Shown: positions 28,501 through 45,861, counted from the stretch's first letter. The stretch is DNA of 64,000 nucleotides from Rhodohalobacter sp. SW132 (GCF_003390325.1 NZ_QUOK01000009.1:62001-126000), one strand, 5' to 3'. Translations and numbers: made by a program. The notes: generated by a model from the sequence alone, not told the origin.

Positions 28501-31500
28501 CAATTACGTTCACATAGCTGTCCGTGATTGTGCCGGCGCTACTTCCAACCAGCCCACCGATGTCATTACCGCTATTGGTGTTTTGGTTGACCTGCCCTAT
28601 GACGTAGCTGTTGCTGACGGTACCATCCAGAAGGTATCCCACCAAACCACCGACAGTATTGCGCCCCCTAATACTCACATCAATCAGACCCAAATTCCGG
28701 ATTATAGCACCGGTGTTCGTGTAGCCAAACAGACCTACATTGTCGGTTGACCGGTTGATGGTGAGGCCGCTTATCGTATGCCCTTGACCATCAAAGGTGC
28801 CGGTGAACGCATTTCCATTCCCGCCGATGGGTTCCCAGCCGGAAACATCATTCCAGGGTGAAACACCCAGATCGATATCGGCCGTTTGTATATAATGAAC
28901 GTCTAAATAATTCCGAACCGAATTGAGCTGTTCAGCGGTTTCTACCTGGTATGGATCGGCTTCAGTTCCGGTGCCCCCGGCAAATATTGGAATAGTGGTA
29001 AAGCTTTGTTCAGTTCCATATGTTGTGCCCTCCGAATTAATCGCATAGGCTCTTATGTAGTATGTTATGCCGGGATTTAACCCGGAAATTGTTTCTGTGA
29101 ATTCACCCATTCCGCTTCCAACCTGAATTTTAGTGTCGTCTGTGGTGGGGTTGGAGCTAGTGGCATACACAAAACCGCGTTCGTTTACTTCAATTCCTTT
29201 ATCATCAATTACTTCACCGCTCACCTCGGCCGAGCCGGATGAAATATTTTCAATTGTTGAATGGGTAACAACTTCAGGGATCTGAGGCTCGAAATAACCC
29301 GGAGCCGGAAACTGTGCATTCGATTGCAGATAGGGATAGGAAATGCTCCCGGAAGATGGTTCTTCAATCTGCCAGACTGTATCAAAATCCCAGCCGGCGT
29401 CGGTGAAGGTGGATTTGGTTTTCATTTGGGCGATTGATAGACCTGTACCGCCGTCTGAATTGACTGAACCAGAAGTTTCTGTGTCCCAAAAGGAGTTTTT
29501 AATCTCCCCACCGGAACCCCTATTTCCAACCAATCCACCAACATCTGTACCTCCCTCAACAATGCCAATCGAATACGTTTTATCGTAATAGCCCTGTGTT
29601 TGCCCTACCAAGCCGCCAACTGCATCCCCTCCACTTACAGAAACATTTGCATAGGAAGAACTGACATTGTCATTTAGACCACCCCTCCCCACCAGGCCTC
29701 CAATCTCTCTGGCTGTGCCATGAACTGTGCCGGTAACATAAGAGTTGGATATAGTACCATTTGAATTACCTACCATTCCACCAACATGTCCATTACCAGT
29801 AACGTCGACATCAATTAGGCCCAAATTACTGATAGTAGAGCCTGTTGATGTACTACCAAAAAGGCCAACTCCATAATCACTCTCGCGGTTAATCGTCAAT
29901 CCTGAAATCGTGTGACCGTTACCATCATAACTACCTGAAAATGGACTTCCTCCGCCACCAGGACCCTCATCCCCACCCTCAATCGGCTCCCAGCCTTCGC
30001 CAACATTCCAGGGTGAAACACCCAGGTCGATATCGGCAGTTTGAATAAAATGGGAATCTGCATAATCTCTAACCGAGTCGAGATGTTCAGCTGTTTCTAC
30101 CTGGTATGGATCGGCTTCAGTTCCGGCGCCTCCGGCAAATATTGATAGCGTAGTAAAAATTTGCTCACTCCCATAACTTGTTCCCTGGCTGTTGATGGCG
30201 TAAGCCCGCACATAGTAGGTGGTTTCTGCGCTAAGTCCGGTTATAGCTTCCTCAAATGCGCCCGTTCCGCTTCCAACCTGTATTTTAGTATCAGAGGTGG
30301 TGGGACCTGAAGTGGTCGCATACACAAAACCACGTTCGGTTACGAAGTCTCCGCCATCGTCGGTTGCGTTACCGCTAAAGGTAGCTCCGGTCGTGGTGAT
30401 GGATGATACGAGTGAGGTGGTAACTGTTGGACTACTGCTTATAACAGGCGATGAAACCTGAATATTATTGATACTGTGATTTGTGGTGCCATCTCCATTC
30501 CATCCGGCATCACTGATATAGATCCTTACATCATCTACATTAGAAAATGACGCATCTAAAGTAACCGTTATGGGAACGTAGCCCGGATCAAAACCTTCGA
30601 ATATCATCGAGGCAACTTCGGTGCCATTACGGTACCCTTTTATCGTATTTGTAAATGGCTCGGTTTCTGCCCAGTTATAATAGATAAACTGAATAAGACG
30701 AAATTCACTGCCGTCTGCAGATTTAACAGACATACCTTTATTGCCTTCATTGATGTAATCATAGGTTAGCGCTATATAATCTGTGTCAGCGCTATAAAAA
30801 AAGTCGTTGTCTTTCCATGAAAGTGAATTTAAAAATGACCCTTCCTCATCTGAAATATTGAAAATCTCAATATCAATATCAGAAATGGCTTGAGAGCCGC
30901 CTTCGCCGTCAGATGCGATATTGTCTCCGGTTATGTCGGCAGAATTTTCTGTAAAAGTCAGAGTGGGGCTAGTGCTTAATAACACTCCTGCACTTTCAGT
31001 CGTAAAACTCTGTTCACCCCCATAACTCGTGCCCTCTCCATTAATTGCATAAGCCCGTACGTAGTACGTGGTTTCTGCGGTAAGGCCGGTAATGGCTTCT
31101 GAAAATGAACCTGTTCCGCCTCCAACTTGCAACCGAGTAGAACGTCCATCTCCTATTTCAGGAGTGATATTTGTGCCATACACAAACCCACGTTCGGTTA
31201 CGGAGTTTCCGCCATCGTCGGTTACGTCACCGCTGAACGTGGCTCCTGTAGTGGTGATGGATGCAGTAGCTGATGTTGATACGGTTGGAGTCGTTGCACT
31301 GGGAACATCGGAATAAACAATGTTATCAAATAGGAAAGAAACATCTTGTGAGCTGATTTCAACCTTATCCACATCATTCCAATTAAGAGAAATTGTGCCT
31401 GTATACAAATATGTATTTTGACTTTTTGAATAAACTTCAGATCCATCCCGATATCCTTTAAAGGATAAGTTAGCATCTCCAAAGCCATCGACTAAATAAA

Positions 31501-31834
31501 AACTAAATAGATTGAAGTGGCTATTATCCGATTTCTGAATGGTAAACATAGTAGCACCACTACTATGCATGTCAATTCCGGGAGTTCCTGATTCTCCCAA
31601 ACTTGTGCTAACAGAAAAATAGGTCGTTCCCCCTATGAGAGAAAAGCTTAAACCTTGGCTACTAAAGGAATTTCCAAGATTCTGATCTTGGGTAGTATAA
31701 CTATTAAAATCAACGGTGGTTGTTTGTGCCTGAATACCTATTGGAATCAGGGTAAACAAAATGCCTATCAAAATAGTAGCTACTTCACCAACTAATTTTG
31801 TGGAAATATCAAAAGAACGTATCAATCTTGTCAT
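22589..31834 (-). CDS. Giant T9SS-exported surface protein with GLUG and MBG/YDG repeat arrays
   Basis: This protein has about 3,080 residues. From the ATG at 31834 it begins with a signal peptide (VATILIGILFTLIPIGIQAQ). An upstream in-frame ATG at 31900, preceded by GAGGGG, would add 22 polar residues. Four fibronectin-like repeats (RGFVYAT...TYYVRAYAIN...GTSYG) alternate with two GLUG-repeat blocks (AGGTGTEADPYQVETAEQL, GGLVG). From roughly residue 1,390 to 2,345 runs an array of two YDG and ten MBG_2 units, each with a variant of QxKxYGDADPxLTF. An SbsA-type Ig domain, two fibronectin-type domains, a domain containing GWNIISNPH and the T9SS tail (QNYPNPFNPST...GRMTLIK) follow. It is probably a long adhesin or surface filament. 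The later half is paralogous to the 1687-residue protein upstream. Confidence 0.88.
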   Translation of the reverse strand: MTRLIRSFDISTKLVGEVATILIGILFTLIPIGIQAQTTTVDFNSYTTQDQNLGNSFSSQGLSFSLIGGTTYFSVSTSLGESGTPGIDMHSSGATMFTIQKSDNSHFNLFSFYLVDGFGDANLSFKGYRDGSEVYSKSQNTYLYTGTISLNWNDVDKVEISSQDVSFLFDNIVYSDVPSATTPTVSTSATASITTTGATFSGDVTDDGGNSVTERGFVYGTNITPEIGDGRSTRLQVGGGTGSFSEAITGLTAETTYYVRAYAINGEGTSYGGEQSFTTESAGVLLSTSPTLTFTENSADITGDNIASDGEGGSQAISDIDIEIFNISDEEGSFLNSLSWKDNDFFYSADTDYIALTYDYINEGNKGMSVKSADGSEFRLIQFIYYNWAETEPFTNTIKGYRNGTEVASMIFEGFDPGYVPITVTLDASFSNVDDVRIYISDAGWNGDGTTNHSINNIQVSSPVISSSPTVTTSLVSSITTTGATFSGNATDDGGDFVTERGFVYATTSGPTTSDTKIQVGSGTGAFEEAITGLSAETTYYVRAYAINSQGTSYGSEQIFTTLSIFAGGAGTEADPYQVETAEHLDSVRDYADSHFIQTADIDLGVSPWNVGEGWEPIEGGDEGPGGGGSPFSGSYDGNGHTISGLTINRESDYGVGLFGSTSTGSTISNLGLIDVDVTGNGHVGGMVGNSNGTISNSYVTGTVHGTAREIGGLVGRGGLNDNVSSSYANVSVSGGDAVGGLVGQTQGYYDKTYSIGIVEGGTDVGGLVGNRGSGGEIKNSFWDTETSGSVNSDGGTGLSIAQMKTKSTFTDAGWDFDTVWQIEEPSSGSISYPYLQSNAQFPAPGYFEPQIPEVVTHSTIENISSGSAEVSGEVIDDKGIEVNERGFVYATSSNPTTDDTKIQVGSGMGEFTETISGLNPGITYYIRAYAINSEGTTYGTEQSFTTIPIFAGGTGTEADPYQVETAEQLNSVRNYLDVHYIQTADIDLGVSPWNDVSGWEPIGGNGNAFTGTFDGQGHTISGLTINRSTDNVGLFGYTNTGAIIRNLGLIDVSIRGRNTVGGLVGYLLDGTVSNSYVIGQVNQNTNSGNDIGGLVGSSAGTITDSYVNVIVGGSSHVGGLVGRNGGAIEGSYALGSLLGSNRLGGFVGSNDGTGTISNSYSSVDVTSNQFNQNIFGGLVGQNFGAISNSYASGIMVVNQNGAGGLVGTGSGSATESFWDTETTGQLTSFGGTGKTTAEMRTRTTFTDAGWNFDSVWQIVETSTTFSSPYLTGNEQNPAPGFLELTPPAITTQENLANLTSESVDVTGQVTHDGNVEITHRGFVWATDAAPDDTTIVWSGSSDDTFTETISDLPPATALNVRSFATNMIGTAYGNLVSFETEPGELLLTGSFTVQDKVYDGESAAMIDQNSLTLDGVYDGHDVQIGTLEIAFTDVDADVDKQVSIQSVTLSGLDVDRYTISLTNAPHSVADITERPIIVSAGAQQVTYGDEDPTLTYEITTGSLVDGDGLSGELNRTAGQNVGTYAIEQGDLTAGSNYDLSFVEADLEITPRVLAITANADQDKTYGEADPSFTYEAANFGWNDSEALITGALDREAGENVGQFAIGQGTLEAGNNYTIDFTSADFEITPKALSIVANSDQSKVYGDADPVLTFTATGFEGDDNENILNGTLNRAAGEDAGTYAIEAGNLDAGDNYTISFTAVDFEITPRPLALSNFTAEDKIYDGSSDVSGAGFEDDRIGGDELTFSFESAFVDSDADTDKPVAFSSIAISGGADANNYDLQTTAGQASANISPRPITIAADEAIVIYGDNDPTLTYKITSGSLVDGDVFTGELNRTAGLDAGMYSIEQHTLSAGSNYEITYQTADFEITLRVLTIVAEPGQGKTYGDADSKFVFTASNFGWNDEEMILTGSLDRDPGENVGTYSITPGDLDAGENYTIDFTPADFTITPKELLVVADGGQKKVYGETDPELTFAVSGFEFTDNEQVFSGALSRESGENIGEYSITTGSLSAGDNYTITLESNPFTITPKVLAVAAASGQEKVYGETDGELSFTASGFELGDQYEIFSGSLSREAGEDVGQYTIKAGHLDAGENYTIDFESDTFSILKRTLTVSADGDQHKTFGEDDPLFTFTADNFGWNDGNELITGALTREGGESTGTYELLVGSLEAGSNYEIDFESALFEIEVRSLQISAAEVSKVYGDADPELSFTATGFGFNDDESILSGELYRQAGKDAGTYAILGDQLTVSGDYTIEYSAADFTIEAKELKITADEGQSKIIGEDDPEFTFSAEGFAFDDGTDLLTGTLSRETGEETGDYLITAGTINAGENYSIVFEESVFSVLMTPPMAVQIFPADGEEKSHVDGPVTIDFDQPVLEADFDRITLKNHNGVNLPIELSIDENSLIINHETLEYVTGYRLDIEEGAVTNRDGVANRAVSSSFTTQVEVPKPVVLVGPYQHEGSVSVHPELSWNPSENATHYSVQLSGDPEFGELLSDVQNHTELSFQINRELSDYTHYYWRVQASNSSGSSEWSESGHFVTVAKTPVHGFPAMMSEEISTAPVLQWTKAYSESPVRVQLSTSENFVELLADSVSAEASAQITGLEDYHTYYWRLRIESDQTTSDWSDTMQFRTRKASSENDHEQVVENKVNFGHNPDAPAQNREITSLDYRLIGLPGNDNLRVDSFFDGRYGRDWKAFFDIGSVTEYYEEYHPDDERFVFAPGRGFWVLSKDVLDIELQTTSVKTNERDAYTIELQPGWNIISNPHRGVVSWSEVQELNNISGDLFGYEEQFIPADSLHPVLGYYYYNNVQNPLDGIDIPYSRMEQRRGENNRENNKLSGAAMSKSPEVANVTADFGADLSFGVELVYSVSDEDRGTYKRPFPSLEMSRYGMMLSDTEMYRGGYLRDETRFDAQGSRYDLELKGKVGSTFSWKAEISGLSSSAGVLLVNPVTKLTWLLESGEEAEATLTEPHTTYELYVGEMNFLLEKQEELMPVEFALEQNYPNPFNPSTNIRYSVPGQEHVRLEVYDIMGRRVMVLQDGIQQAGWHNVHFNAGSLASGVYFYRLTAGEAMKVGRMTLIK

Positions 31835-31900
31835 GGTTATACTATTTTTAGATAGAGGTAATTTTTGGTCTTGTTGCCTTGAATGGAAAGCTTGATACAT

Positions 31901-32612: not shown

Positions 32613-35600
32613 TTATTTCACAATCGTCATTTTATGGGAACTCACGTTGTTCTCGGTGGTCATCCGGTAGATATAGACACCACTGGCCAGGCGGCTCGCA
32701 TCAAACTGCACGGTATGCCAGCCAGCAGGCTGTTCATCATTGATGAGCACCTGCACGCGCCGGCCGATCACATCATAGACTTCAAGGCGTACCTCCTGCT
32801 TTTCCGGGAGGGAGAACCGTATATTGGTAGTCGAATTAAACGGGTTGGGATAGTTGGGGTATAATGCAAAATTTTCCGGCAAGTATTCCCTCTGTTTCTG
32901 CTCAAGCCAGTAGCGGTCACCCGTGAATAGCGTATACACGGTGTTTGATTGCTCTGCAACTGCTTCTACGCTCTCTCCATTCTGCAGCAGCCATGATTGA
33001 TCACTCTCTTCATCTACCATTAAAAGACCGGTATTTGCAGGCATATCGGTGAGTTCCGCACGCCAAGTAAAAACGGTTCCTTCCTCTGCTTTCAGATGAA
33101 GATGATATTCACTCCCCCGGCGATTATATGCGGCTACATCTCTGATCAATCCCTGTCGGTTTTCTGCTTCAGGTCTTGTCATCATCATGCCGCTGCGAAT
33201 CATCTCCATAGGTGGATGATACTTCCGGTACCGGTTCGTATCTCCCTCAAAATCTGTCTGTTTCTCAGCAAGGCCGGGAAAAAGAAGCTCCGTGGTTAAT
33301 CTTTTTTTCTCATCAAATTCGGCGTGTAATTTTACCGATGGCTGAGTTTCCCGGGATGCTGCAAGCAAGAGTTCACCCTCATTATCCGTTTTCCGCCGGT
33401 ATTCCATTCCCGAGTATGGAATTTCGAGTGCATCGAGTGCCGTTTCCGGCGGATTGAAATAGTAATACCCGTGAACCGGTCGAAGAGAATCCGCTTCTGT
33501 AAAACGACTATTGTAGCTATATGCCTCGCCCTGAATGCTGTTCATCATCTGAACATCCCGCCAGCTGATACTGCCGGTGTGCGGATTGGAAATAATATTC
33601 CAGCCCGGGTTCAGCGGAATCGTGTAGGCGTCATTCTCATTCGTTTCTACATTGGTTACAGGCAGCTCCAGGTTCAGATTTCCGTTTCCGGATACCCAGA
33701 AACCACTCCCCGGCGTAAAGGTAAAATTTCCGTCACCCTGCCTGAATTCGCGGTACTCATCTTCCGAACCATTCTTCCGAAGTGCTTTCCAGTCTGTCCC
33801 GTAATTTCCTTCAAAAAGATCGCTGACCAAATACCGATCCTCACCGGGCAGCCCCACCAGGCGATATTCACGCCCCGAACGCTCCTGCTGATCACCAGTC
33901 TGCGAATTCCCAAATTCAATTTGCTCACGGATAACACGATTTGCATCCGCCATTTGAGGAGCCGGCCGTGTTCTGAATGCATTTAATTCAGTCCACTCAC
34001 TTTGAGTTCTTTCATTTTCTACCCTCACGCGCCAAAAATATTGCTGATCTTGCTCCAATCCGGTTAACTGAACCGATGTTTCGTTTGTCAGCCTGTCTGT
34101 CACCGGGGCGTTGAAATCTTCAGATTTTGATAGCTGGACCCTGTAAGTGGTATTGTAGGCCGAACTCCATTCCACTAACGGAGCGATACTGATCTGACCT
34201 GCATCCGCAATTGGAAAGACAGAACCGGGCGCTTCGGCAACGGTTATGAAAGACCGCAAATTTGACCATTCAGACCGCCCTGTGCTGTTTTTCGCCCTGA
34301 TACGCCAGAAATAGCGCTGATTATGGTCCAGATTTCCAGGCAGCTCATATCTTATTTCCTCCAGAACCTCCTCATCAACGAGCGGATTCATAAACTCTCT
34401 GTCCCGACTCACCTGTACCTGATAGCTATCAGCATGCAATGCGGGTTCCCACTCCAATGTGGGCTGAACGGCAACCGATCCTACCCGATCAACCGGGTAC
34501 TGAAGAGCAACCTGCTCCGGCAGAGCCCAGATCGTTGTAAACGACCAGGAGTAGGATTCATTCCCAACTTCATCCGCATTGCGAACCACGTTTGCCGGAA
34601 TGGTTACCCGGTAATCTGCAAACTGTTCAAAACGGCCATGCTCAATCACAAGCTGATTATTCTCAAGCTCTGACTCAACATCCAGTACCGATCCGTCAGC
34701 AACCCTGGTGATGGTGATATCAGCTAAATCTCCGGCATCCACATTCTGGGTGAATGAAATAACCGGTGGCCGGGAAAATCCAACCCCCACAGCTCCATCA
34801 GACGGAGAATGGGAGTCTACCACCGGTGGTGACATAATGGTAGTAAATTGCCAGGAAAATTCTTCATTCGGTATTCCATCCAGGTTCTCAACGGCTCCGT
34901 CTCCTATCATTACAGAATACGTGGTTTGATGAACGAACTCACTCTGAATTAACGTCATCCGGTTGCCTTCAACGTCGATCCTGAAATCAATTTCCCGGTT
35001 TTCCGGATCGGTCACCGTAATCTGATCCGCATCCGCGAGCGTAATGGAGTGATCAAATTCAACCGTAACCGGGGCGTTGGGTTCAATCCGTGTCTCATCC
35101 GGCGCCGGTAACTGCTGAACCGCTACAGGCGGTGTTCGAAGAATCGAAAACTCTGCCTGCCTCAGTCTGATCTCGTAATTCGGTCCGGCATCCAGATTTC
35201 CCTTCACGATGCTGTACTTACCGGGCATCTCTCCCGGCTCTCGTTCCAGGGAACCGTCTACGATCGAGCGATCATCCCCATATTCAAATCCATTTACCCT
35301 GTACGTTATTTCCGGATCGTTTTCTCCTTCAAATTTCCATTTCTCCCCGGTTGCGGTTACAGTCAGTGCTTTTGGTTTGATGATAAACGGTGCCGGCCTG
35401 AATGCGATCTCATAATTCTCCCCGGCTGTTAGTGTCCCCTGCCGGATTTCATACCTGCCGGCATCCAGAGTACCGGTGCGCTCAGGCATCCCGCGCAGCT
35501 CATCCTCCTCCAGCAGCGATCCTCTTGTGATTCTGTATTCAAGCAGCGGCTCCTCATCACCATACTCAATTTCAACCGGACGCGCCGATACCGATAACGG

Positions 35601-37676
35601 TCGCGGATGGATATCGGCAAGTACCGACCAGCTTGTGGTTTGCAGCTGGTAATTGTTTTGATCCGCTCCACCCGTAATTTCGATATCTGTAAAGTGGACG
35701 ATCCTGTTTTGACCGGCATCCGGGGTCTCAAATGCCGCATTGTAATCAAATTCCAGGCGATCCCCTTCCACCCGGTTATCCCGAAAATCTGATCCTGATA
35801 CATCCGTTGTGCCATCATACCTTTTGTCGCTGGCCGTAAAATCGGTCAGCATCAGAGGGCGCGGCATGATTTCAAACTGAGCCGGTTCAAAAATGATTTT
35901 ATAATTCTTGCCGGCATCCAGAGAACCTTTTCTGATCTCATAAAATCCAACATCATCACCTTGTTCCCGGTTCGGTGATCCCGTCAGCACACCTTCGTTA
36001 TCATTGAACGCAAAGCCTTCTGCCATGAACCGGAAATCCGGATCACTGTTTCCATACATCTTAGTCTGGTGGCGGGTCGCTTCAACCTGCAGCTCTTTTG
36101 GTTTGATCTCAAAATCGGCTGATGAAAAGTCGATCTCATAATTTTCACCGGCGCTCAATGTATTTTGGTGAATCTGGTATTTGCCTGCATTTTCGCCTTC
36201 CTCCCTGGTGAGTGAACCATTCAGAATCTCAATATCCTCACCCGGTGCAAAATTCTGCGCTTCAAATCTTAATTCAGGATCAGCGTCACCATAGGTTTTG
36301 GATTGGCCGCCATTCACAACAACCTGCAGTGTTCGCGGAAGGATGTTAAACTCAGCCGGTTCAAACGTAATTTCGTAATTTTCGCCGGCATCCAGCGATC
36401 CCTGCTGAATTTCATACTCTCCGGCATTCTGCGATCCGGTTCGGGACAGCTGACCGGAAATCCGATCCCCATCCGCCACTGATCCATCGCTGATGTTATA
36501 CTCCAGGCCGGGCACTTCATCACCATAGATCATCTCAGCTGATTGAGCCTGAATCGTAATCTGACGCGGATAAATATCAGCCTGCGCAATTCCCCATGTG
36601 TAATCCAGAGTATAATTTTGTTGATCAGGACCGCCTGTTAATTCAATATCGCTGAAGAAAACGGTTTTGCCCGTTCCGGCATCCGGATTCTCAAATTGTG
36701 CGGTATAAGTGAACTCCAGCTCATCCCCGGAGAGACGATCATCTCCGAAACTGGTCCCGTGCGCATCAGAAGTACCATCATATATTTTGTCATCAGCCGT
36801 AAAGCTTTCCAGGATAAGCGTTCGTGGCTGAATCGTAAATTCAGCCGGCTGAAAACTGATATTGTAGTTTGTACCGGCATCAAGATTCCCCCCGGTAATC
36901 GCGTACACACCGGCATCCTCGCCCATCTCGCGCTCTAACTCCCCTGAAAGGATCGATTCGTTGTCACCATCTGCAAAATTGGACACGCTAAACTGCAGCT
37001 CCGGGTCCGGCTCACCATAGATTTTAGATTGTTGACTCTCTGCCGTTACAACCAGGTCACGCTGCGTAATTACAAAATCGGCAGATCTGAATTGAATTGA
37101 ATAATTGCTGCCTGCAGATAAATCACCCTGAGTGATTTCGTACCGGCCTGCGTTTTCGCCCCCTTCACGGGTTAGCGAACCGGTAAACAGATCGGGGCTA
37201 TCATCATACACGAATCCCTCCGCATTGTAGGTAAGCTGAGGGTCATCTTCGCCAAATACTTTGGTTTGATTTTCATCCGCAATGATCTCAAGCTCTGCGG
37301 GATGTATCGTGATGACCTGTTCTGAATGTTCACCTTCATCTCCCTCATCGGTTCCGGCCGGCCTTGCTGTCACGGTCGCAGTGCCAGCTCCCCGGATCGC
37401 AGCGATATTTCCATCGATGGCAAGCAGATCCGGATTATCCGTTGTATAGATAATTTGTACCCCATCGGAAGTGCTTTCCGGGCCAAGTTCAAACGGTTCT
37501 TCACCATACGTTTTATCCCGGAGTGATGCGATTTCGTTATTATCGCTGGAATCTGATTCATCAGACAGATGGATCACAGCATACGGATTCTCTGCAGATC
37601 GGAGAAGATCCGGTGAAAACATCATCACATAAAAAACCAGAAAGAATAGAAAAAAAGTACTTTTACGGAGCATCAT
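32613..37676 (-). CDS. Large T9SS-exported MBG/YDG repeat protein
   Basis: This 1687-residue protein has a signal peptide (residues 1-27, core FFLFFLVFYVMMFS). A short Ig-like segment (YGEEPFELGPESTSDG...GTATVTARPAG) comes first. An array at about 115-850 has seven MBG_2 units (QSKTYGDADPELRF and variants) and two YDG units (DDKIYDGTSDA, SDKRYDGTTDV). Two SbsA-type Ig domains (about 855-1060) and two fibronectin-type domains (about 1065-1250) follow. Last come a domain with GWNIISNPH and a T9SS sorting tail (NYPNPFNSTTN, YDVIGRRV, LASGVYIYRM, KMTIVK). It is probably cell-surface attached and adhesive. Domain order matches the second half of the downstream 3,000-residue protein, so the two arose by duplication, followed by gain or loss of repeats and of the GLUG-rich front half. 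Confidence 0.88.
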   Translation of the reverse strand: MMLRKSTFFLFFLVFYVMMFSPDLLRSAENPYAVIHLSDESDSSDNNEIASLRDKTYGEEPFELGPESTSDGVQIIYTTDNPDLLAIDGNIAAIRGAGTATVTARPAGTDEGDEGEHSEQVITIHPAELEIIADENQTKVFGEDDPQLTYNAEGFVYDDSPDLFTGSLTREGGENAGRYEITQGDLSAGSNYSIQFRSADFVITQRDLVVTAESQQSKIYGEPDPELQFSVSNFADGDNESILSGELEREMGEDAGVYAITGGNLDAGTNYNISFQPAEFTIQPRTLILESFTADDKIYDGTSDAHGTSFGDDRLSGDELEFTYTAQFENPDAGTGKTVFFSDIELTGGPDQQNYTLDYTWGIAQADIYPRQITIQAQSAEMIYGDEVPGLEYNISDGSVADGDRISGQLSRTGSQNAGEYEIQQGSLDAGENYEITFEPAEFNILPRTLQVVVNGGQSKTYGDADPELRFEAQNFAPGEDIEILNGSLTREEGENAGKYQIHQNTLSAGENYEIDFSSADFEIKPKELQVEATRHQTKMYGNSDPDFRFMAEGFAFNDNEGVLTGSPNREQGDDVGFYEIRKGSLDAGKNYKIIFEPAQFEIMPRPLMLTDFTASDKRYDGTTDVSGSDFRDNRVEGDRLEFDYNAAFETPDAGQNRIVHFTDIEITGGADQNNYQLQTTSWSVLADIHPRPLSVSARPVEIEYGDEEPLLEYRITRGSLLEEDELRGMPERTGTLDAGRYEIRQGTLTAGENYEIAFRPAPFIIKPKALTVTATGEKWKFEGENDPEITYRVNGFEYGDDRSIVDGSLEREPGEMPGKYSIVKGNLDAGPNYEIRLRQAEFSILRTPPVAVQQLPAPDETRIEPNAPVTVEFDHSITLADADQITVTDPENREIDFRIDVEGNRMTLIQSEFVHQTTYSVMIGDGAVENLDGIPNEEFSWQFTTIMSPPVVDSHSPSDGAVGVGFSRPPVISFTQNVDAGDLADITITRVADGSVLDVESELENNQLVIEHGRFEQFADYRVTIPANVVRNADEVGNESYSWSFTTIWALPEQVALQYPVDRVGSVAVQPTLEWEPALHADSYQVQVSRDREFMNPLVDEEVLEEIRYELPGNLDHNQRYFWRIRAKNSTGRSEWSNLRSFITVAEAPGSVFPIADAGQISIAPLVEWSSAYNTTYRVQLSKSEDFNAPVTDRLTNETSVQLTGLEQDQQYFWRVRVENERTQSEWTELNAFRTRPAPQMADANRVIREQIEFGNSQTGDQQERSGREYRLVGLPGEDRYLVSDLFEGNYGTDWKALRKNGSEDEYREFRQGDGNFTFTPGSGFWVSGNGNLNLELPVTNVETNENDAYTIPLNPGWNIISNPHTGSISWRDVQMMNSIQGEAYSYNSRFTEADSLRPVHGYYYFNPPETALDALEIPYSGMEYRRKTDNEGELLLAASRETQPSVKLHAEFDEKKRLTTELLFPGLAEKQTDFEGDTNRYRKYHPPMEMIRSGMMMTRPEAENRQGLIRDVAAYNRRGSEYHLHLKAEEGTVFTWRAELTDMPANTGLLMVDEESDQSWLLQNGESVEAVAEQSNTVYTLFTGDRYWLEQKQREYLPENFALYPNYPNPFNSTTNIRFSLPEKQEVRLEVYDVIGRRVQVLINDEQPAGWHTVQFDASRLASGVYIYRMTTENNVSSHKMTIVK

Positions 37677-38327: not shown

Positions 38328-40031
38328 TCAACGGATCTCTCTTTTTAACGCTTCCACTCGTTTAAGTACTTCATCGCGTGATAAATTCCGGAATCGTTCC
38401 GGGAGCAATCGCCGGGAGGTACATTCCGAAACCGCAACCAGGGCCTGCAGCTCAATCTCTTCGGGATAGGTGGGCGGGAGAAAATCGTATAGTACATCGT
38501 CCAGAATTTGCGGGGTAACCTCCTTGAGGCCTTCTGCCGCGGCGTGAAATTTTGCCCGCGTAAGAGCCGCTTCCATATCAGCGCCGGAATATTTTATCGT
38601 CCCTTTTTTGATCGCTTTCGGCAGGTACTCTTCGGTAAGTTTTAGCCCGGTCTTTTTTTTCATCACTTCAAAAAGCTCCACCCGTTCCTCCTCCGTTTCC
38701 GGGTGAAACAGGGCGATGTGCTCTTCTGCACGGCCCTGACGCTTCAGGTCGACTGGCATCAGGTCCGGACGGGCTGTCATCAGGAACCAGACAATTCGTC
38801 CGCGGTGATCGGTATTGCTCATAAACGTGGCAATTTGCGAAAACACCCGGCTCGATACTCCGCTGTCGCCCGATGCACTTCGATCTCCCAGGTAGGCATC
38901 GGCCTCATCAATCATCACCGCAACCGGGCTCATCGCGCGCAGCAGGCTCAAAATTTTCTCCAGGTTTCCTTCGGTTACACCCTGCCACTGGCTTCTGAAA
39001 TTTTTCAGCTTCACCATAGGAATTCCCACTTCGCCTGCAAAACTGGTCACCAAAAACGTCTTTCCGGTTCCAACAGGCCCGCAGACGAGATATCCCATCG
39101 GAATCACATCACGCCGACCTGATTTGAGGGCATCGGCCGCCAGGCGCAGATGTTTTTTTACCTCTGAATGACCGGCCACCTGGTCAAGCGTGTTGGTCGC
39201 AGGTACAAACTCCAAAAGACCATACGCCTCCTCTTCGATCATTCGCTTTTTAATCTCTGAGAGGGAATCAAACGTGATCGGCTCCTTATGCTCACTTGAG
39301 TTGGAAAGTATGCTGCGGATGCGCACCAGCCCCAGGCCGGCCGTCATCTCGGTAATCATCTCCATAGGTAAATCAGAATGAATTCCTTCGTTCTTTTTAT
39401 GCTGGGCAAGATAGGCAGAACGTTCCTCTTCATCAGGCAGCGGCACATGAATATCTGCAGTGTAGGGATGCTGAACCAGCCGCCGGTTCAGATCCGCCAT
39501 ATTTTCCGTAAGCAGAACAGTGGTGAAATCCCCGGCGAGAAAGAGTGGATCATACGCCCATTTAAGCAGGTAAACCAGTGCGTTCCGGTCTTCGGTTCCA
39601 GAGGCACCGGCGTCATTCATCGGAACAACCGTTTCGGCGTGATCGATAATCAGCGCCACGCTTTTTTTATCATTCAGCCGGGTCCGGATATACTGTTCAA
39701 GTACCGAAAATGCACCAACCGGATCTTTCGGAAGTTTTTTGCTGTAATCGGTTCCCAGGATTGTATCACGGCCGGAAAGCGCGCGGTTAAAATCAGTTTG
39801 AGATTTCTGATCCCGAAAATAGATTCCCGTTGCTCGGTCGTAGAAAAGCACAAAATCCCTGGAGCCGAAAAATTCATCGGCCAGAAACGTCTTCAGCCGG
39901 TCGAACCGGTTGGGAGAACTCTTCACCCTCACCATATCGTGTACATTGCCATGAACGATAAACTGGTTCAGCGTACGGCTGAGGTATTTCTTGGCAAAGC
40001 GGGACGCCCATTCGGGATATTGTTCCAGCAT
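38328..40031 (-). CDS. Two-domain AAA+ ATPase, Ycf46-like, with degenerate first domain
   Basis: This cytoplasmic protein has 567 residues. The N-terminal half keeps traces of a AAA fold (VALIIDHAETVVP at about 125-137 as a Walker B relic, TTVLLTEN at 170-177) but has no Walker A. This is the arrangement known from Ycf46-type proteins. The C-terminal domain looks active: Walker A GPVGTGKT (318-325), Walker B VAVMIDEAD (370-378), sensor TAR (419-421) and an arginine finger in KRQGRAEEH (Arg 434). A helical lid follows. The gene is the last of a minus-strand run (PspA, two coiled-coil proteins, enoyl-CoA hydratase, CNNM protein, this). Snf7/PspA-family proteins are ESCRT-III relatives and often work with AAA ATPases, so a remodelling role on PspA polymers is attractive but inferred. 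Confidence 0.82.
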   Translation of the reverse strand: MLEQYPEWASRFAKKYLSRTLNQFIVHGNVHDMVRVKSSPNRFDRLKTFLADEFFGSRDFVLFYDRATGIYFRDQKSQTDFNRALSGRDTILGTDYSKKLPKDPVGAFSVLEQYIRTRLNDKKSVALIIDHAETVVPMNDAGASGTEDRNALVYLLKWAYDPLFLAGDFTTVLLTENMADLNRRLVQHPYTADIHVPLPDEEERSAYLAQHKKNEGIHSDLPMEMITEMTAGLGLVRIRSILSNSSEHKEPITFDSLSEIKKRMIEEEAYGLLEFVPATNTLDQVAGHSEVKKHLRLAADALKSGRRDVIPMGYLVCGPVGTGKTFLVTSFAGEVGIPMVKLKNFRSQWQGVTEGNLEKILSLLRAMSPVAVMIDEADAYLGDRSASGDSGVSSRVFSQIATFMSNTDHRGRIVWFLMTARPDLMPVDLKRQGRAEEHIALFHPETEEERVELFEVMKKKTGLKLTEEYLPKAIKKGTIKYSGADMEAALTRAKFHAAAEGLKEVTPQILDDVLYDFLPPTYPEEIELQALVAVSECTSRRLLPERFRNLSRDEVLKRVEALKREIR

Positions 40032-40069
40032 GATTCTTTCGCTTTAATTTTTGGGTTGATTTCCGGCTG

Positions 40070-41350
40070 CTACTCAGGATCTTTCAGCATCAGTTTCACC
40101 GTATCCAGCCGGTTTGGAGTAGCTTTACTGATGATAAATTTATTTCCCTGGATAAAAAGCTCTTCATTCACCTTTGGAATCCGCCCGATGTGATTGATGA
40201 TATAACCTGCAACCGTTTCAAACTCATCACTGTTTTCTTTCAGGTTAATTTCGGGAAATTTCTCCTGCAGTTCTTCCAGGTCAACGTTTCCACTCAGAAC
40301 AAAGGTGTTTTCGTTGATTCGTTTCACATATTCATCTTCCTGATCGTACTCATCCTGAATATCCCCGACAACCTCTTCAATCAGGTCTTCAATTGTAACC
40401 ATGCCGGCGGTTCCGCCATACTCATCAATCACAATAGCTACGGAGCTATTGCTCTGCCGGAATTCCGCAAGCAGATCTTTCGATTTTTTGCTGGATGGAA
40501 TCAACTTAACCGGGCGGATAATGTCGGCAATCGTCTTTGGCGAATCGAATAAATCATAGGCAAACACCACCCCGGTTATGTCATCAATATTATCCTGGTA
40601 GACCGGAATTTTGGAATAACCTGACGCGATAAATGTTTTTTGAATTTCATCAATAGTGGCGTTCTGATCAATTGCAACCATCTCCGTACGCGGTACCATG
40701 GTCTCCTTCACACGCTTGTTTGAGAGTTCCAGTACGTTATGCAGAATCTGTGAATCTTCCTGGTCGAAATTCTCACCGCCTCCTGTATCGCGGAGCTCTT
40801 TGAGGATCATCTCTACATCCTGCCTACGGAATACTTTTTCACTTCGCTCGGTGCCGCTTTTCAGCATACGGATTAAAAAGCCTGATGCGGAGTTTGCAAG
40901 AGAGATAAGCGGACGCAAAACAACGTTGAGAAACCGAAGGGGTACGGCAACCACTTTTACCATAAAATCGGCCTGGATCCGGAAAATCGCCTTCGGGATA
41001 ATCTCGCCAAAAATCATAATTACAAGCGATGCGATAATCGTCTGAATAAGAAGAACAACAGCTGTTGACGGATATACGCCAGCCCAGGATTCATAAAAAG
41101 TGCGGACCGGTTCAAGCAGGTAAATTGCCATCAATGTTGCATAAAGAACATTAATGATGTTATTGCCTACGAGTGTTGTGGTGAGAAAGGTTTCCGGCTT
41201 TTCGTTAAAAAAAGCAAGTGAACGGGAGACCAGCGAGCCTTTGCGGCTTTCAATCTCAAGTTTTAGCCGGTTTGCCGAAACGAAGGCAATTTCCGAACCC
41301 GAGAAGAACGCGCTCGCCATGATTGTCAGTATGATGATCAGGAATTCCAA
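40070..41350 (-). CDS. CNNM/CorC (HlyC) family transporter-associated membrane protein
   Basis: This 426-residue inner-membrane protein has an N-terminal CNNM (DUF21) domain with about four hydrophobic segments (ASAFFSGSEIAFVSANRLKLE, then TTTLVGNNIINVLYATLMA and MIFGEIIPKAIFR). Two CBS domains come next (VKETMVPRTEMVAIDQ, YSKIPVYQDNIDDITGVVFAYDL). The C-terminal CorC/HlyC domain starts near VAIVIDEYGGTAGMVTIEDLIEEVVGDIQDE. Family members take part in Mg2+/Co2+ efflux or homeostasis. The start is a TTG at 41350. The next ATG, ten codons in, would remove part of the first membrane helix, so the TTG is preferred. It precedes the AAA+ gene by 38 bases and follows the enoyl-CoA hydratase gene after 130 bases. 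Confidence 0.88.
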   Translation of the reverse strand: MEFLIIILTIMASAFFSGSEIAFVSANRLKLEIESRKGSLVSRSLAFFNEKPETFLTTTLVGNNIINVLYATLMAIYLLEPVRTFYESWAGVYPSTAVVLLIQTIIASLVIMIFGEIIPKAIFRIQADFMVKVVAVPLRFLNVVLRPLISLANSASGFLIRMLKSGTERSEKVFRRQDVEMILKELRDTGGGENFDQEDSQILHNVLELSNKRVKETMVPRTEMVAIDQNATIDEIQKTFIASGYSKIPVYQDNIDDITGVVFAYDLFDSPKTIADIIRPVKLIPSSKKSKDLLAEFRQSNSSVAIVIDEYGGTAGMVTIEDLIEEVVGDIQDEYDQEDEYVKRINENTFVLSGNVDLEELQEKFPEINLKENSDEFETVAGYIINHIGRIPKVNEELFIQGNKFIISKATPNRLDTVKLMLKDPE

Positions 41351-41480
41351 AAATCGGTATCAGGCAACGTGAATATTAATACATACGAAACGGTTAAGAT
41401 AAAAAGAATTCGCCCCAACTCTCTGCCCGTTTTACGGTTTAGAATGCACGGGTAGATTCTTTTCAAAATTTCTTGTTGGA

Positions 41481-42257
41481 TCACTTTCCTTTGAAATCAG
41501 GTTTCCGTTTTTCGAGGAATGCAGATGTTCCTTCTTTAAAATCTTCTGTTTCGCATAATTTTCCGAATATTTCCGATTCTTTTTTAAATCCCGATGTGGA
41601 GTCTGCCGCATGAATCGCCTCTATCGCTCCTGAAACGGCAACCGGGCCATTTTTGAAAATTTTCTTCAATAGTTCTTCGGCTACAGAATCCGCATCCTCA
41701 TCAACACGGTTCAGCAGGCCAAAATTGAGTGCCTCCTCGGCTTTAATTTGTCTTCCGGTAAGAATAAGATCTGCAGCACGCGCCTGACCGATCAATTTTG
41801 TCATCCTCTGGGTGCCGCCATATCCGGGAATCAGCCCCAGGGAAACTTCCGGCAGGCCAAAAACGGCATTTGGTGTTCCCACTCTCATATGTGCCGAGAG
41901 CGCGAGTTCTGTTCCGCCGCCCAGTGCATATCCATCCACCACGGCAATTACCGGTTTGGATGAGCTTTCAATTTTCTGAAAAATCTGCTGCCCTTTTTCC
42001 GATGCCGCGGTTCCGCTCTCCCGGTTCAGCCCTGACAGCTCCGAGATATCAGCTCCTGCAACAAACGCTTTATCCCCTGAACCATTCAGGACTACACCTT
42101 TCACCGCTTTATCACCGGCAATCTGATCAAAGGCCCGATCCAGCTCATCCAAAACTGCGTTGTTGAGAGCATTCAGTTTTTTGGGACGGTTGATTGTAAG
42201 GTGGGCAATTCCGTTTGAATCCGTCGATAGTTCAATCGTTTCGTAATTGGCAGACAT
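41481..42257 (-). CDS. Enoyl-CoA hydratase/isomerase family protein
   Basis: This cytoplasmic crotonase-fold enzyme of 258 residues should hydrate trans-2-enoyl-CoA in fatty-acid or amino-acid breakdown. The oxyanion-hole segments are visible (KAFVAGADISEL and GYALGGGTELAL). Both catalytic glutamates of true hydratases are present, one in GGGTELAL and one in FGLPEVSLG, followed by PGYGGTQRM. The length is standard for the family. It starts seven bases after the membrane coiled-coil gene of the PspA cluster, so it is likely co-transcribed with it. That is an unusual neighbour for a beta-oxidation enzyme and may be simple read-through linkage, or a link to membrane lipid turnover. Confidence 0.88.
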   Translation of the reverse strand: MSANYETIELSTDSNGIAHLTINRPKKLNALNNAVLDELDRAFDQIAGDKAVKGVVLNGSGDKAFVAGADISELSGLNRESGTAASEKGQQIFQKIESSSKPVIAVVDGYALGGGTELALSAHMRVGTPNAVFGLPEVSLGLIPGYGGTQRMTKLIGQARAADLILTGRQIKAEEALNFGLLNRVDEDADSVAEELLKKIFKNGPVAVSGAIEAIHAADSTSGFKKESEIFGKLCETEDFKEGTSAFLEKRKPDFKGK

Positions 42258-42264
42258 AGAAAAT

Positions 42265-43143
42265 TTATTTTACGTTTTGTTCCGTTCGTTTATGAAGTTC
42301 TTCCGCCTCTTTTCGCAATTCGGCGAGTTCCAGCTCCTGGTCGAGCTCCTCAAAACCGGGCAGAAGGCTGCGGTCCAGCTCTTCAATAATCGTTGTGGCT
42401 TCCTCCATCTCCTCAAGCAGATGATCGAGTTTGTTGCCCACATCCTCCGCATTCGGCATGGTCATCGACTGTTCGTAGATAAACCGCGTGGCATCCTCGA
42501 TGGTTTCGAGATGAGTTTCGCAGATGAGATATTTTTCTTTGGCTACATCAAACTTATTCAGCCGCTTGCGTAAAATTTTCACTCTTCGCTCTTTCGTATC
42601 ACGCAGCCGTTTCGACTCAATTTCGCTGATCTGATCCTCCTGCAACTTCACTTCATTTTTCAGCTCTTCCTCCACTTCTGAATTCATGTAGATCTGGTAG
42701 CGGCGGTACATATCCAGCAGCGTAAGGTACGTATTCAGTAAATCATCAAGTTTCTTTTCGATATGTTCAAGAACTCCCTGCGAACTGTAGGGCAGCGACT
42801 GAAAATTACTTTTCACCTCAGAAGCGATGTGTTTAAGCACCAAAAACCGTTTTTGTGAACGCACATCCAGCTGATAGAAAATGGCTTTATCGCCTTCATC
42901 GTCCAGCTTCTCTTTCTGTTTTTTGCGGATAACCGACTGCCGGTAAGAGTTCAGGTTTGGCACAACACCCAGATAGAGCAGCTCCGCTCCAAACGTAAGT
43001 GTGAGAATGGTATGCGGGGCAAGTCCGGCATCTGTGAACACAAGGGCTGAAATCGTTGCCAGAAGCAGAGATACCAGGTTTACAGGATGCAAAAACGCTT
43101 CCCGTGTAAAATTTATGGAGGATGATTTATCGTCTTTTGCCAT
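42265..43143 (-). CDS. Membrane-anchored coiled-coil protein of the PspA locus
   Basis: This 292-residue protein belongs to no family I can name. Near the N-terminus are two adjacent hydrophobic segments (PVNLVSLLLATISALVFTDAG and ILTLTFGAELLYLGVVP, about residues 20-65), a likely membrane hairpin. The rest is highly charged and helical, with long coiled-coil stretches (SEVEEELKNEVKLQEDQISEIESKRL and an acidic C-terminal region rich in Glu and Leu). The cytoplasmic part may dock PspA or the small coiled-coil protein to the membrane, a role comparable to PspB/PspC but without sequence similarity that I can see. It is third in a tight run: 12 bases after the 143-residue gene and 7 before the hydratase gene. 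Confidence 0.7.
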   Translation of the reverse strand: MAKDDKSSSINFTREAFLHPVNLVSLLLATISALVFTDAGLAPHTILTLTFGAELLYLGVVPNLNSYRQSVIRKKQKEKLDDEGDKAIFYQLDVRSQKRFLVLKHIASEVKSNFQSLPYSSQGVLEHIEKKLDDLLNTYLTLLDMYRRYQIYMNSEVEEELKNEVKLQEDQISEIESKRLRDTKERRVKILRKRLNKFDVAKEKYLICETHLETIEDATRFIYEQSMTMPNAEDVGNKLDHLLEEMEEATTIIEELDRSLLPGFEELDQELELAELRKEAEELHKRTEQNVK

Positions 43144-43155
43144 GATTTCGCTTTT

Positions 43156-43587
43156 TTATTGCTCCCGGTTTTCACTGTCTTCACGGTCGGGTCCAACCGT
43201 TTTCTTTACCTGCAACTGCTCTGCCTGTTCTTCCAGATCATCATAGAGCATCCCCATTTCCCGTTTAATCTGTTGCAGCGACTCTTTCGCTTTCTGCTTT
43301 TTGAGCTCTTCATCTCGCTCCGCCTCCAGTTCAGCGTCGGAGTTGATCAGGTCGTCCATCGCCAGATCAAGCCGGGCTTCGATGGAAGCCATTTTGTATC
43401 GCACTTTTCCGAGAAATTCATCTACTGAACCAAGCAGTTCATCTGACTGCATCTGCCGGAGGGCATCTGATGCTTTTTTAGCATACCGGGAGCTTCGAAG
43501 TTTTTCGCTCGTATCACGGATTTTGCGATAGTGATCTTTGTACTCCTCCTTTAAACGCTCCCGTTCTTCACGGCTCGACTCACTCAT
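43156..43587 (-). CDS. Small coiled-coil protein of the PspA locus
   Basis: This 143-residue, almost entirely helical, highly charged protein has no signal peptide and no membrane segment. An arginine/lysine-rich first third (REERERLKEEYKDHYRKIRD) is followed by a central part with MASIEARLDLAMDDLINSDAELEAER, whose pattern recalls the later helices of PspA (EARMEIALDSVD in the neighbour). A glutamine/glutamate-rich C-terminus ends in acidic residues. It may be a shortened PspA/Snf7 relative or a binding partner of one. The gene lies six bases after the pspA stop and twelve before the membrane coiled-coil gene, so the three are surely one operon. No function is established. Confidence 0.7.
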   Translation of the reverse strand: MSESSREERERLKEEYKDHYRKIRDTSEKLRSSRYAKKASDALRQMQSDELLGSVDEFLGKVRYKMASIEARLDLAMDDLINSDAELEAERDEELKKQKAKESLQQIKREMGMLYDDLEEQAEQLQVKKTVGPDREDSENREQ

Positions 43588-43593
43588 GGCGTG

Positions 43594-44355
43594 TTACGAT
43601 TTGGTTCGGTCTTTTTTACCAACCGTTTTGCCTGCTTCAGGCTCCTGGGTTGACTCCTCATCAATAGAGATACTTTTTTCGCTGCTTTTCACACTCTTGC
43701 CCATCTCCTGCTTAAACTGGTTAACAAGCTCCTGTGCTCGCAGTTTTTCGGCATTAGCCTCGATCTCCATCGTTTCGGTATCCACGCTGTCGAGCGCAAT
43801 TTCCATCCGGGCCTCATTTTTGGCCGTCTGTTCATTCAGTCGGTTCAGCATCTCACTGTGGGTCTGATCCATCCCGCCCATTTCGAATGATTCGAGCGTA
43901 TCGGCAACTTTGGCCTGCCACTCTGCCCGTTCACTGGCTCGCAAGGCTTCCCGTGCCTCCTTAATTTTCCTGTCTTTTTCGCGCATAAACGCTTTTTTCA
44001 CCTTTTGCGCTTTCTCATACGCCTGCTCGGCAAATTTCAGCTGCTCGTGTGAGTGCTCCAGGTTTTCACGCGTTTTTTCGAGCTGAAGCGCATACCCCTG
44101 CGCCAGGTCATCGCGGTCGGCATTGATCGCCGATTTTATCTTTGATGTGATATCCGATATCGCCTTTTCGTAGCGGTCCACCTCTTTTCGAAGCATCACC
44201 ACGTTGGCCTTCACCGTTGCGATATTTTCATTCATCTGCGGTATCTGATCATTCAGCTCCCTGATGTTCTGTTCCAGGATCAGCTTCGGGTTCTCCATGG
44301 AATTTACCATACCGCCAAACATCGATCGTATTGCTCTTATTAATCTGTCAAACAT
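43594..44355 (-). CDS. PspA/IM30 (Vipp1) family protein
   Basis: This 253-residue helical protein belongs to the PspA/IM30 family, bacterial relatives of ESCRT-III that form rods or rings and bind stressed membranes. The N-terminal amphipathic helix (FDRLIRAIRSMFGGMVNSMENP) is characteristic, followed by KLILEQNIRELNDQIPQMNENIATVKANVVMLRKEVDRYE and a long alpha-helical hairpin. The C-terminal 40 residues form a polar, Ser/Lys/Glu-rich tail. It is the first gene of the run with two coiled-coil proteins and an enoyl-CoA hydratase; a CNNM protein and an AAA+ ATPase follow on the same strand. No sigma-54 promoter or PspF gene was seen, so control probably differs from the enterobacterial Psp system. 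Confidence 0.9.
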   Translation of the reverse strand: MFDRLIRAIRSMFGGMVNSMENPKLILEQNIRELNDQIPQMNENIATVKANVVMLRKEVDRYEKAISDITSKIKSAINADRDDLAQGYALQLEKTRENLEHSHEQLKFAEQAYEKAQKVKKAFMREKDRKIKEAREALRASERAEWQAKVADTLESFEMGGMDQTHSEMLNRLNEQTAKNEARMEIALDSVDTETMEIEANAEKLRAQELVNQFKQEMGKSVKSSEKSISIDEESTQEPEAGKTVGKKDRTKS

Positions 44356-44502: not shown

Positions 44503-45861
44503 CTATCTTGTTATATAATCGTGAACACCGTCTTTATCAACCCTGTTCGCTATTTGAGTAATTTTTTCCGGGGATGTTTCAGACAACGTGATCGCGCGGA
44601 TCATTTCATCCTTACATTCGGGGATCATCGACTTCTTGTTCGTGTGCAGCTCTGCTAATGTTTCATTTTCTTCAATATAATCCCCAACTTTTTTGTGAAG
44701 CAGGAATCCTGCGGCTGGATCCACGTCATCATCTTTAGCCCGGCGGCCTGCTCCAAGTTCGAGTGACACCATCCCCATCGCAAAAGCATCCATTTCCTTA
44801 ATATAACCGCTTTTTGATGAAATCACCGGTTCGATATGATCCGCTTTCGGATACGTTTCCGGGTTTTCAATCACACCGGTATCCCCATCGTGCGCCTTCA
44901 CAATGCTTACCCATTTTTTAAACGCAGAGCCATCTTTCACAGACGCCCGGCTTTTCTCAATACCTTCTTCAACGGTTGAAGCTTTCTTGCCAAGGTAGAT
45001 CATCGTACCTGCCAGCAGGTGCGTGATTTCCATCGCATCGTCAGGTCCGTTTCCCTGCAGCCCGTCGATGCTCTCTTTCACCTCAAGCCAGTTACCAACA
45101 GCGTACCCGAGCGGCTGCTCCATATTGGTGAGATAGGCGATGGTTTCTTTGCCAAACTGTTCGCCAATACCGACCAGCGTTTCAGCGAGGCGGATGGCAT
45201 CCTCTTTTTTCTTCATAAATGCGCCCGATCCAAATTTCACATCCAGCACCAGCGCATCAATTCCTTCAGCCAGTTTTTTGCTCATAATGCTCCCGGCAAT
45301 CAGCGGAATCGATTCCACCGTTGCAGTCACATCGCGAAGAGCGTACAGCCTTTTATCAGCCGGGGCGATCTCTTCTGTCTGCCCCGCAAGCACCATCTGC
45401 TCTTGTTCCAGGATTTCCCGGTATCGCTCAAGGGTGATATCAACGGTGAATCCCGGAATGGATTCCAGCTTATCGAGAGTTCCGCCGGTGTGCCCCAGTC
45501 CGCGTCCGGAAATCATGGGAACGGGAACGCCGCATGACGCCACAATGGGGGCAAGAATCAGCGACAATTTATCTCCAACGCCGCCGGTGGAATGTTTATC
45601 AACTTTTACGCCGGGAATATCGCTCAGATCAAGCACGATACCGCTGTGCAGCATGGAGCGGGTTAAAGCCGCCGCCTCCTCATCGTTCAACCCGTTCAGA
45701 AATGACGCCATCAAAAAAGCGCTCATCTGGTAATCGGGCAGCCGGTCTTCCGTATAAGCTTTTATTAAATCCTGAATTTCCCCATCCGTGAGTTCAAGTC
45801 CATCTCTTTTTTTGCGAATCAGTGATACCGGGTTGATATCTTTTACGCTCATATCGTTCAT
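44503..45861 (-). CDS. Pyrimidine-nucleoside / thymidine phosphorylase
   Basis: This 452-residue cytoplasmic enzyme cleaves thymidine, or pyrimidine nucleosides in general, with phosphate to the base and (deoxy)ribose 1-phosphate. Family motifs are clear: the N-terminal alpha domain (LIRKKRDGLELTDGEIQDLI, MSAFLMASFLNGL) and the signature VDKHSTGGVGDKLSLILAP. Further on are SGRGLGHTGGTLDKLESIPGF, SLPLIAGSIMSKK-like text and LDVKFGSGAFMK. The C-terminal barrel-sandwich region ends normally. The length and the KHSTGGVGDK form fit both DeoA and Pdp, so I do not choose between them. The gene is on the same strand as pspA, with a 147-base gap and a hairpin between, and is probably separately transcribed. 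Confidence 0.93.
   Translation of the reverse strand: MNDMSVKDINPVSLIRKKRDGLELTDGEIQDLIKAYTEDRLPDYQMSAFLMASFLNGLNDEEAAALTRSMLHSGIVLDLSDIPGVKVDKHSTGGVGDKLSLILAPIVASCGVPVPMISGRGLGHTGGTLDKLESIPGFTVDITLERYREILEQEQMVLAGQTEEIAPADKRLYALRDVTATVESIPLIAGSIMSKKLAEGIDALVLDVKFGSGAFMKKKEDAIRLAETLVGIGEQFGKETIAYLTNMEQPLGYAVGNWLEVKESIDGLQGNGPDDAMEITHLLAGTMIYLGKKASTVEEGIEKSRASVKDGSAFKKWVSIVKAHDGDTGVIENPETYPKADHIEPVISSKSGYIKEMDAFAMGMVSLELGAGRRAKDDDVDPAAGFLLHKKVGDYIEENETLAELHTNKKSMIPECKDEMIRAITLSETSPEKITQIANRVDKDGVHDYITR

Follow-up and report, generated by a model that had tools for sequence, protein, structure and literature searches.

We propose that PspA, a polymer-forming protein of bacterial membrane repair, is served in Rhodohalobacter sp. 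SW132 and its relatives in the class Rhodothermia by a dedicated ATPase that takes the polymer apart or remodels it. This ATPase would dock on a short tag in the tails of the PspA-family proteins and extract subunits from the polymer; judged from the sequences, the probability of this reading is approximately 0.55. The docking on the tag is suggested by three features: the ATPase and the tag are lost together, the tag also occurs in genomes in which the ATPase gene is not linked to that of PspA, and the tag is doubled in a paralogue where PspA itself has lost it. The genes were found in a window of 64,000 nucleotides (NZ_QUOK01000009.1:62001-126000), this being the whole stretch of DNA that was analysed; coordinates given as window positions below refer to it.

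The locus and its proteins

According to the gene calls in the window, the block is encoded on the minus strand in the following order: the PspA/IM30-family protein (253 aa, 43594..44355), a 143-aa protein (43156..43587), a coiled-coil protein with a hydrophobic hairpin (292 aa, 42265..43143), an enoyl-CoA hydratase (41481..42257; PF00378, 2.8e-62), a CNNM/CorC-type membrane protein (40070..41350; PF01595, PF00571 and PF03471; its best NCBIfam match, GldE, is below the cut-off) and a tandem AAA ATPase (567 aa, 38328..40031). PspA stands in tandem with the next two genes, and the intergenic gaps between the first four genes are 6, 12 and 7 bases, followed by 130 bases between the hydratase and CorC-type genes and 38 bases between the latter and the ATPase gene. 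An earlier note on this DNA had given correct coordinates for PspA, the two coiled-coil proteins and the ATPase, as well as the 6- and 12-base gaps; its description of the ATPase as closing a same-strand run is right as to the strand, but omits the intervening hydratase and CorC-type genes. These two genes are probably syntenic passengers, as both stay in place when the module is lost in one of the relatives (G007).

PspA is preceded by a 452-aa gene resembling pyrimidine-nucleoside phosphorylase (window 44503-45861, minus strand), and in many relatives a gene of comparable length and start occupies the place before PspA. The window also contains, on the minus strand, a gene of a 1687-aa repetitive secreted protein (32613-37676), which, as read from its translation alone, probably has MBG-type repeats and a C-terminal sorting-like end (GVYIYRMTTENNVSSHKMTIVK), and an adjoining 3103-aa open reading frame (22589-31900).

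The 253-aa protein scores 61.1 bits with PF04012, the curated Pfam cut-off being 33.9 (E = 1.6e-16), and hence is a member of the PspA/IM30 family; matches of the family profile to the solved Vipp1/PspA structures are weak (best E = 0.0015). Residues 17-116 of the 143-aa protein align with residues 125-223 of PspA (hhalign probability 98.3%, E = 1.2e-14), and used as a query in the search of relatives, this protein also matches PspA proteins; for the 143-aa protein alone, a Pfam PspA match was not found. Since it aligns to this part of PspA, we regard the 143-aa protein, on the strength of the alignment, as a truncated PspA paralogue that has no N-terminal half, in agreement with the earlier suggestion of a shortened PspA relative.

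The 292-aa protein has a conserved N-terminal hydrophobic hairpin (approximately residues 20-63), followed by long helices or coiled coil; the mean pLDDT of its predicted model is 79. The protein from the window has no Pfam match, a Snf7 match in Pfam was observed in one of the 33 members of its family (E = 0.021), and the comparison with PspA by hhalign gave a probability of 1.8; profile similarity of the 292-aa protein to ESCRT-III/Snf7 or PspA was not obtained. A Foldseek search with the model produced generic long helical bundles and no PDB match at E 0.001 or better, and VIA-align produced generic helical bundles and BAR-like rows only. The possibility that this protein is an ESCRT-III relative is thus supported neither by Pfam and hhalign, nor by the PDB sequence profile and Foldseek. 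In two relatives the 292-aa gene is broken by an in-frame stop (G043:C1:2082570-2083381 and G063:C35:22379-23191), due to either decay or a sequencing error.

In the ATPase, the Pfam AAA domain (PF00004, 2.5e-25) covers residues 315-440 only, and a P-loop motif is absent from the N-terminal half, yet the predicted model can be superposed on the two AAA domains of Cdc48/p97 (TM reaching approximately 0.57), hence having their tandem two-domain arrangement; Cdc48/p97 are also the best PDB matches both by sequence and by fold. The Walker A motif GPVGTGKT (residues 318-325, 39057..39080), the presumed pore loop KNFRSQWQG with W349 in the aromatic position (residues 343-351, 38979..39005) and the Walker B motif VMIDEAD (residues 372-378, 38898..38918), all encoded on the minus strand, are conserved in the alignments, and the pore-loop segment aligns with SKWVGES and SMWYGES in proteins of the Cdc48 type. 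Thus, the view of the earlier note that one AAA domain is dead and the other active is borne out, the second domain being complete, and this second domain is predicted to be active and suited to threading.

Judged by its domains, the ATPase is not a Vps4. The MIT and Vps4_C domains yielded no Pfam match in it at E 1; the score with the NCBIfam cell division protein CdvC is 55.2 bits against the cut-off of 650, and the fold is of the tandem Cdc48/p97-like type. The score with the CDC48 family TIGR01243 is also below the cut-off (93.7 vs 802.65 bits). The term Vps4-like, applied previously to this set of genes, can therefore be retained as an analogy only.

Distribution, linkage and losses

Among 97 relatives, the named ones being Balneolales and other Rhodothermia, we found PspA in 88 genomes and the 292-aa protein in 87, and the ATPase search matched 74 at the threshold, a few of these only through partial matches or weaker ones to paralogues. 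Of the 345 Bacteroidota genomes sampled, 87 had the ATPase, 87 PspA and 87 the hairpin protein. All three were confined to Rhodothermia with the exception of one genome outside the class (G336), and the members of the class with each of the three proteins form identical sets, save for G007. Several small genomes have neither PspA nor the rest of the set.

PspA is located upstream of the ATPase on the same strand in 63 of the 65 genomes where both are on one contig, the distance being most often approximately 3.4-3.8 kb (range 2.8-5.4 kb). This linkage exceeds what chance would give, and all 63 linked pairs belong to the order of the window. In G095 and G096, which belong to other orders of the same class, PspA and the ATPase are far apart on one contig, and in G094 each lies on a contig of its own.

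The genes of the ATPase, the 143-aa protein and the 292-aa protein are absent from G007, where PspA, the hydratase and the CorC-type gene are kept side by side (locus L055). Fifteen genomes of one family (f3), probably constituting a single clade, have no ATPase but keep PspA and the 292-aa protein; the 143-aa gene was not found in them. The tree of the PspA core shows two independent losses of the ATPase, and both lineages also lack the 143-aa gene and the tail motif described below. The shared losses, together with this motif, point to a functional tie between the ATPase and the PspA set, as had been supposed. The further supposition, that the hairpin protein recruits the ATPase, is not supported: the 292-aa protein is retained in the 15 genomes without the ATPase, and the tail motif is absent from this protein, being found on PspA and the 143-aa paralogue.

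In G336, the gene of a hairpin-protein homologue immediately precedes that of the ATPase, with a gene of a 242-aa coiled-coil protein coming next (L208), and on another contig (L216/L218) PspA with the tail KKEIGPQ is found near a second copy of the latter gene. This arrangement, seen in one genome of 420 contigs, resembles the longer operons in the available part of Ravi et al. 2024 (PMC11237479). The ATPase was found in one of 98 genomes of the class to which G336 belongs, namely G336 itself. Homologues of the ATPase (approximately 25-27% identity, 76-97% coverage) were also observed on large plasmids of Aneurinibacillus, Brevibacillus and Paenibacillus (L209-L212); near the full-length homologues on these Bacillota plasmids no PspA was found.

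The tail motif and the ATPase

The tails of PspA contain K[T/S][V/I/L/M]G followed mostly by basic residues; below, the tail motif is K[T/S][V/I/L]G. In the window, as read from the sequence, it is represented by K243-T-V-G246 in PspA, 7 residues from the C-terminus (43618..43629, minus strand), and by K129-T-V-G132 in the 143-aa protein (43192..43203, minus strand); across the relatives, the 143-aa paralogue has one or two copies.

PspA carries the motif in 86 of the 90 ATPase-positive genomes with a distinct PspA, and in the remaining four (G108, G176, G289 and G388) the 143-aa paralogue has two copies. Hence, the motif is present in PspA or in the 143-aa paralogue in all 90 ATPase-positive genomes vs none of the 16 ATPase-negative ones. 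G011, where the motif is present and the ATPase was not found, was set aside as a probably incomplete genome (71% complete). The background frequency of the motif is 30 per 1861 other reading frames, a value inflated by several 143-aa genes missed by the filter. As the regular expression was chosen after the tails had been viewed, conservation inside the motif is in part built in; 49 of 52 PspA tails have K, R or N as the next residue, which the expression does not cover, and the preceding linker positions are variable.

The motif in PspA is present in G094, G095 and G096, whose ATPase gene lies elsewhere, and also in G090, G092, G094, G096 and G350, where the 143-aa gene was not found between PspA and the 292-aa gene. 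Thus, the motif tends to follow the ATPase rather than the neighbourhood or the 143-aa gene. In PspA it has changed three further times with the ATPase kept. Since only two independent losses are available, the link between the motif and the ATPase is not statistically strong when the phylogeny is taken into account (sign test, p = 0.5).

Interpretation and comparison with known systems

There are several ways in which these patterns could arise. The motif might be read by some other factor, such as a phosphothreonine-binding protein, a protease adaptor or a kinase, the ATPase and the motif being lost together as the pathway decays. The second position of the motif, nearly always T or S, is compatible with phosphorylation, and the loss events number only two; however, 15 of the 16 genomes that lack the ATPase still have the 292-aa gene next to PspA, and hence the pathway is not wholly gone there, so that we consider this explanation unlikely. 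It also seems quite improbable that the ATPase encounters PspA at the membrane but does not remodel the polymer, acting instead as a stress regulator or as a Cdc48-like unfoldase in quality control. Such a function would agree with the best sequence and fold matches being Cdc48/p97 and with the plasmid homologues that have no PspA nearby, but not with the occurrence of the ATPase in nearly every PspA-bearing genome of the sampled class, nor with the position of the tag on the PspA-family proteins.

The ATPase and PspA could also simply have inherited a common neighbourhood with no functional link, the hydratase and CorC-type genes of the block being equally conserved in position within the order. 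However, the co-loss in G007 is selective and leaves these two genes in place, and the motif is kept where the ATPase is unlinked, making such inheritance a very improbable account.

In the reading that we prefer, with an ATPase dedicated to the PspA polymer, PspA would form a membrane-bound polymer, the 143-aa paralogue, which consists of the C-terminal part of PspA and the tail, might serve as a cap or adaptor subunit, and the 292-aa hairpin protein could be a membrane-embedded partner. The tandem ATPase would bind K[T/S][V/I/L]G in the tails, presumed flexible, of both PspA and its 143-aa paralogue and, presumably by threading, pull subunits out of the polymer, thus recycling or reshaping it.

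The central idea of the earlier note, an association of PspA with the ATPase in an ESCRT-like role, is not new, as the available passages of Ravi et al. 2024 (PMC11237479) already pair PspA with a protein of two AAA copies, the N-terminal one being inactive, report PspA/Snf7/third coiled-coil neighbourhoods in Bacteroidetes (including an example with a third PspA-like coiled coil, CBH24266.1), and suggest ATP-dependent membrane remodelling comparable to that of Snf7/Vps4. The ATPase of the window, with its two AAA domains, the N-terminal one inactive, and its gene near PspA, is likened to these proteins by architecture and neighbourhood (examples AEY64321.1 and CBH24266.1); judging from the same passages, the gene partners are of the same kind and the proposed role is the same. 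Both the tail motif and its correspondence with the ATPase are new here: they were not found in the papers searched, where nothing on point was seen regarding a known PspA tail motif, and a tail motif is not among the passages extracted from the main text of Ravi et al. 2024 (PMC11237479).

The proteobacterial Psp system (PspA and PspF) also combines PspA with an AAA protein, but of a type different from the ATPase of the window, PspF being an NtrC-type transcription activator according to the part of Ravi et al. 2024 (PMC11237479) available. A 2024 structural study of PspA leaves the disassembly factor open, suggesting only chaperones or PspF (PMC11746142). For the question of what disassembles bacterial PspA polymers, the present set provides candidates for the ATPase and for its docking tag, besides a truncated adaptor; each of them is of a size that permits in vitro work, and named isolates of the window's order are among the relatives.

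In eukaryotes, Vps4 pulls on ESCRT-III. The ESCRT-III/Vps4 systems of eukaryotes and archaea, including CdvB/CdvC, and the set described here are alike in that the polymer belongs to the PspA/ESCRT-III superfamily and is accompanied by an AAA ATPase, and in that its subunits carry a short tag at the C-terminus, in our case a candidate docking tag. By this analogy, the presence of the tag with the ATPase and its absence where the ATPase is gone suggest that the ATPase may pull on the polymer in the Vps4/ESCRT-III fashion. Unlike Vps4, it is a tandem protein with a dead first domain and with no match to MIT or Vps4_C. It is similar to Cdc48/p97/VCP in the tandem AAA architecture and in the best PDB matches, but differs from Cdc48 in that its first domain has no P-loop and that the protein starts at the first AAA domain, without an N domain. 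We give even odds to the broader proposal that Rhodothermia have a dedicated ESCRT-III-like disassembly machine, in which a Cdc48-type ATPase would read K[T/S][V/I/L]G on PspA and on the truncated adaptor, thus paralleling the recognition of MIM motifs by Vps4 with different parts.
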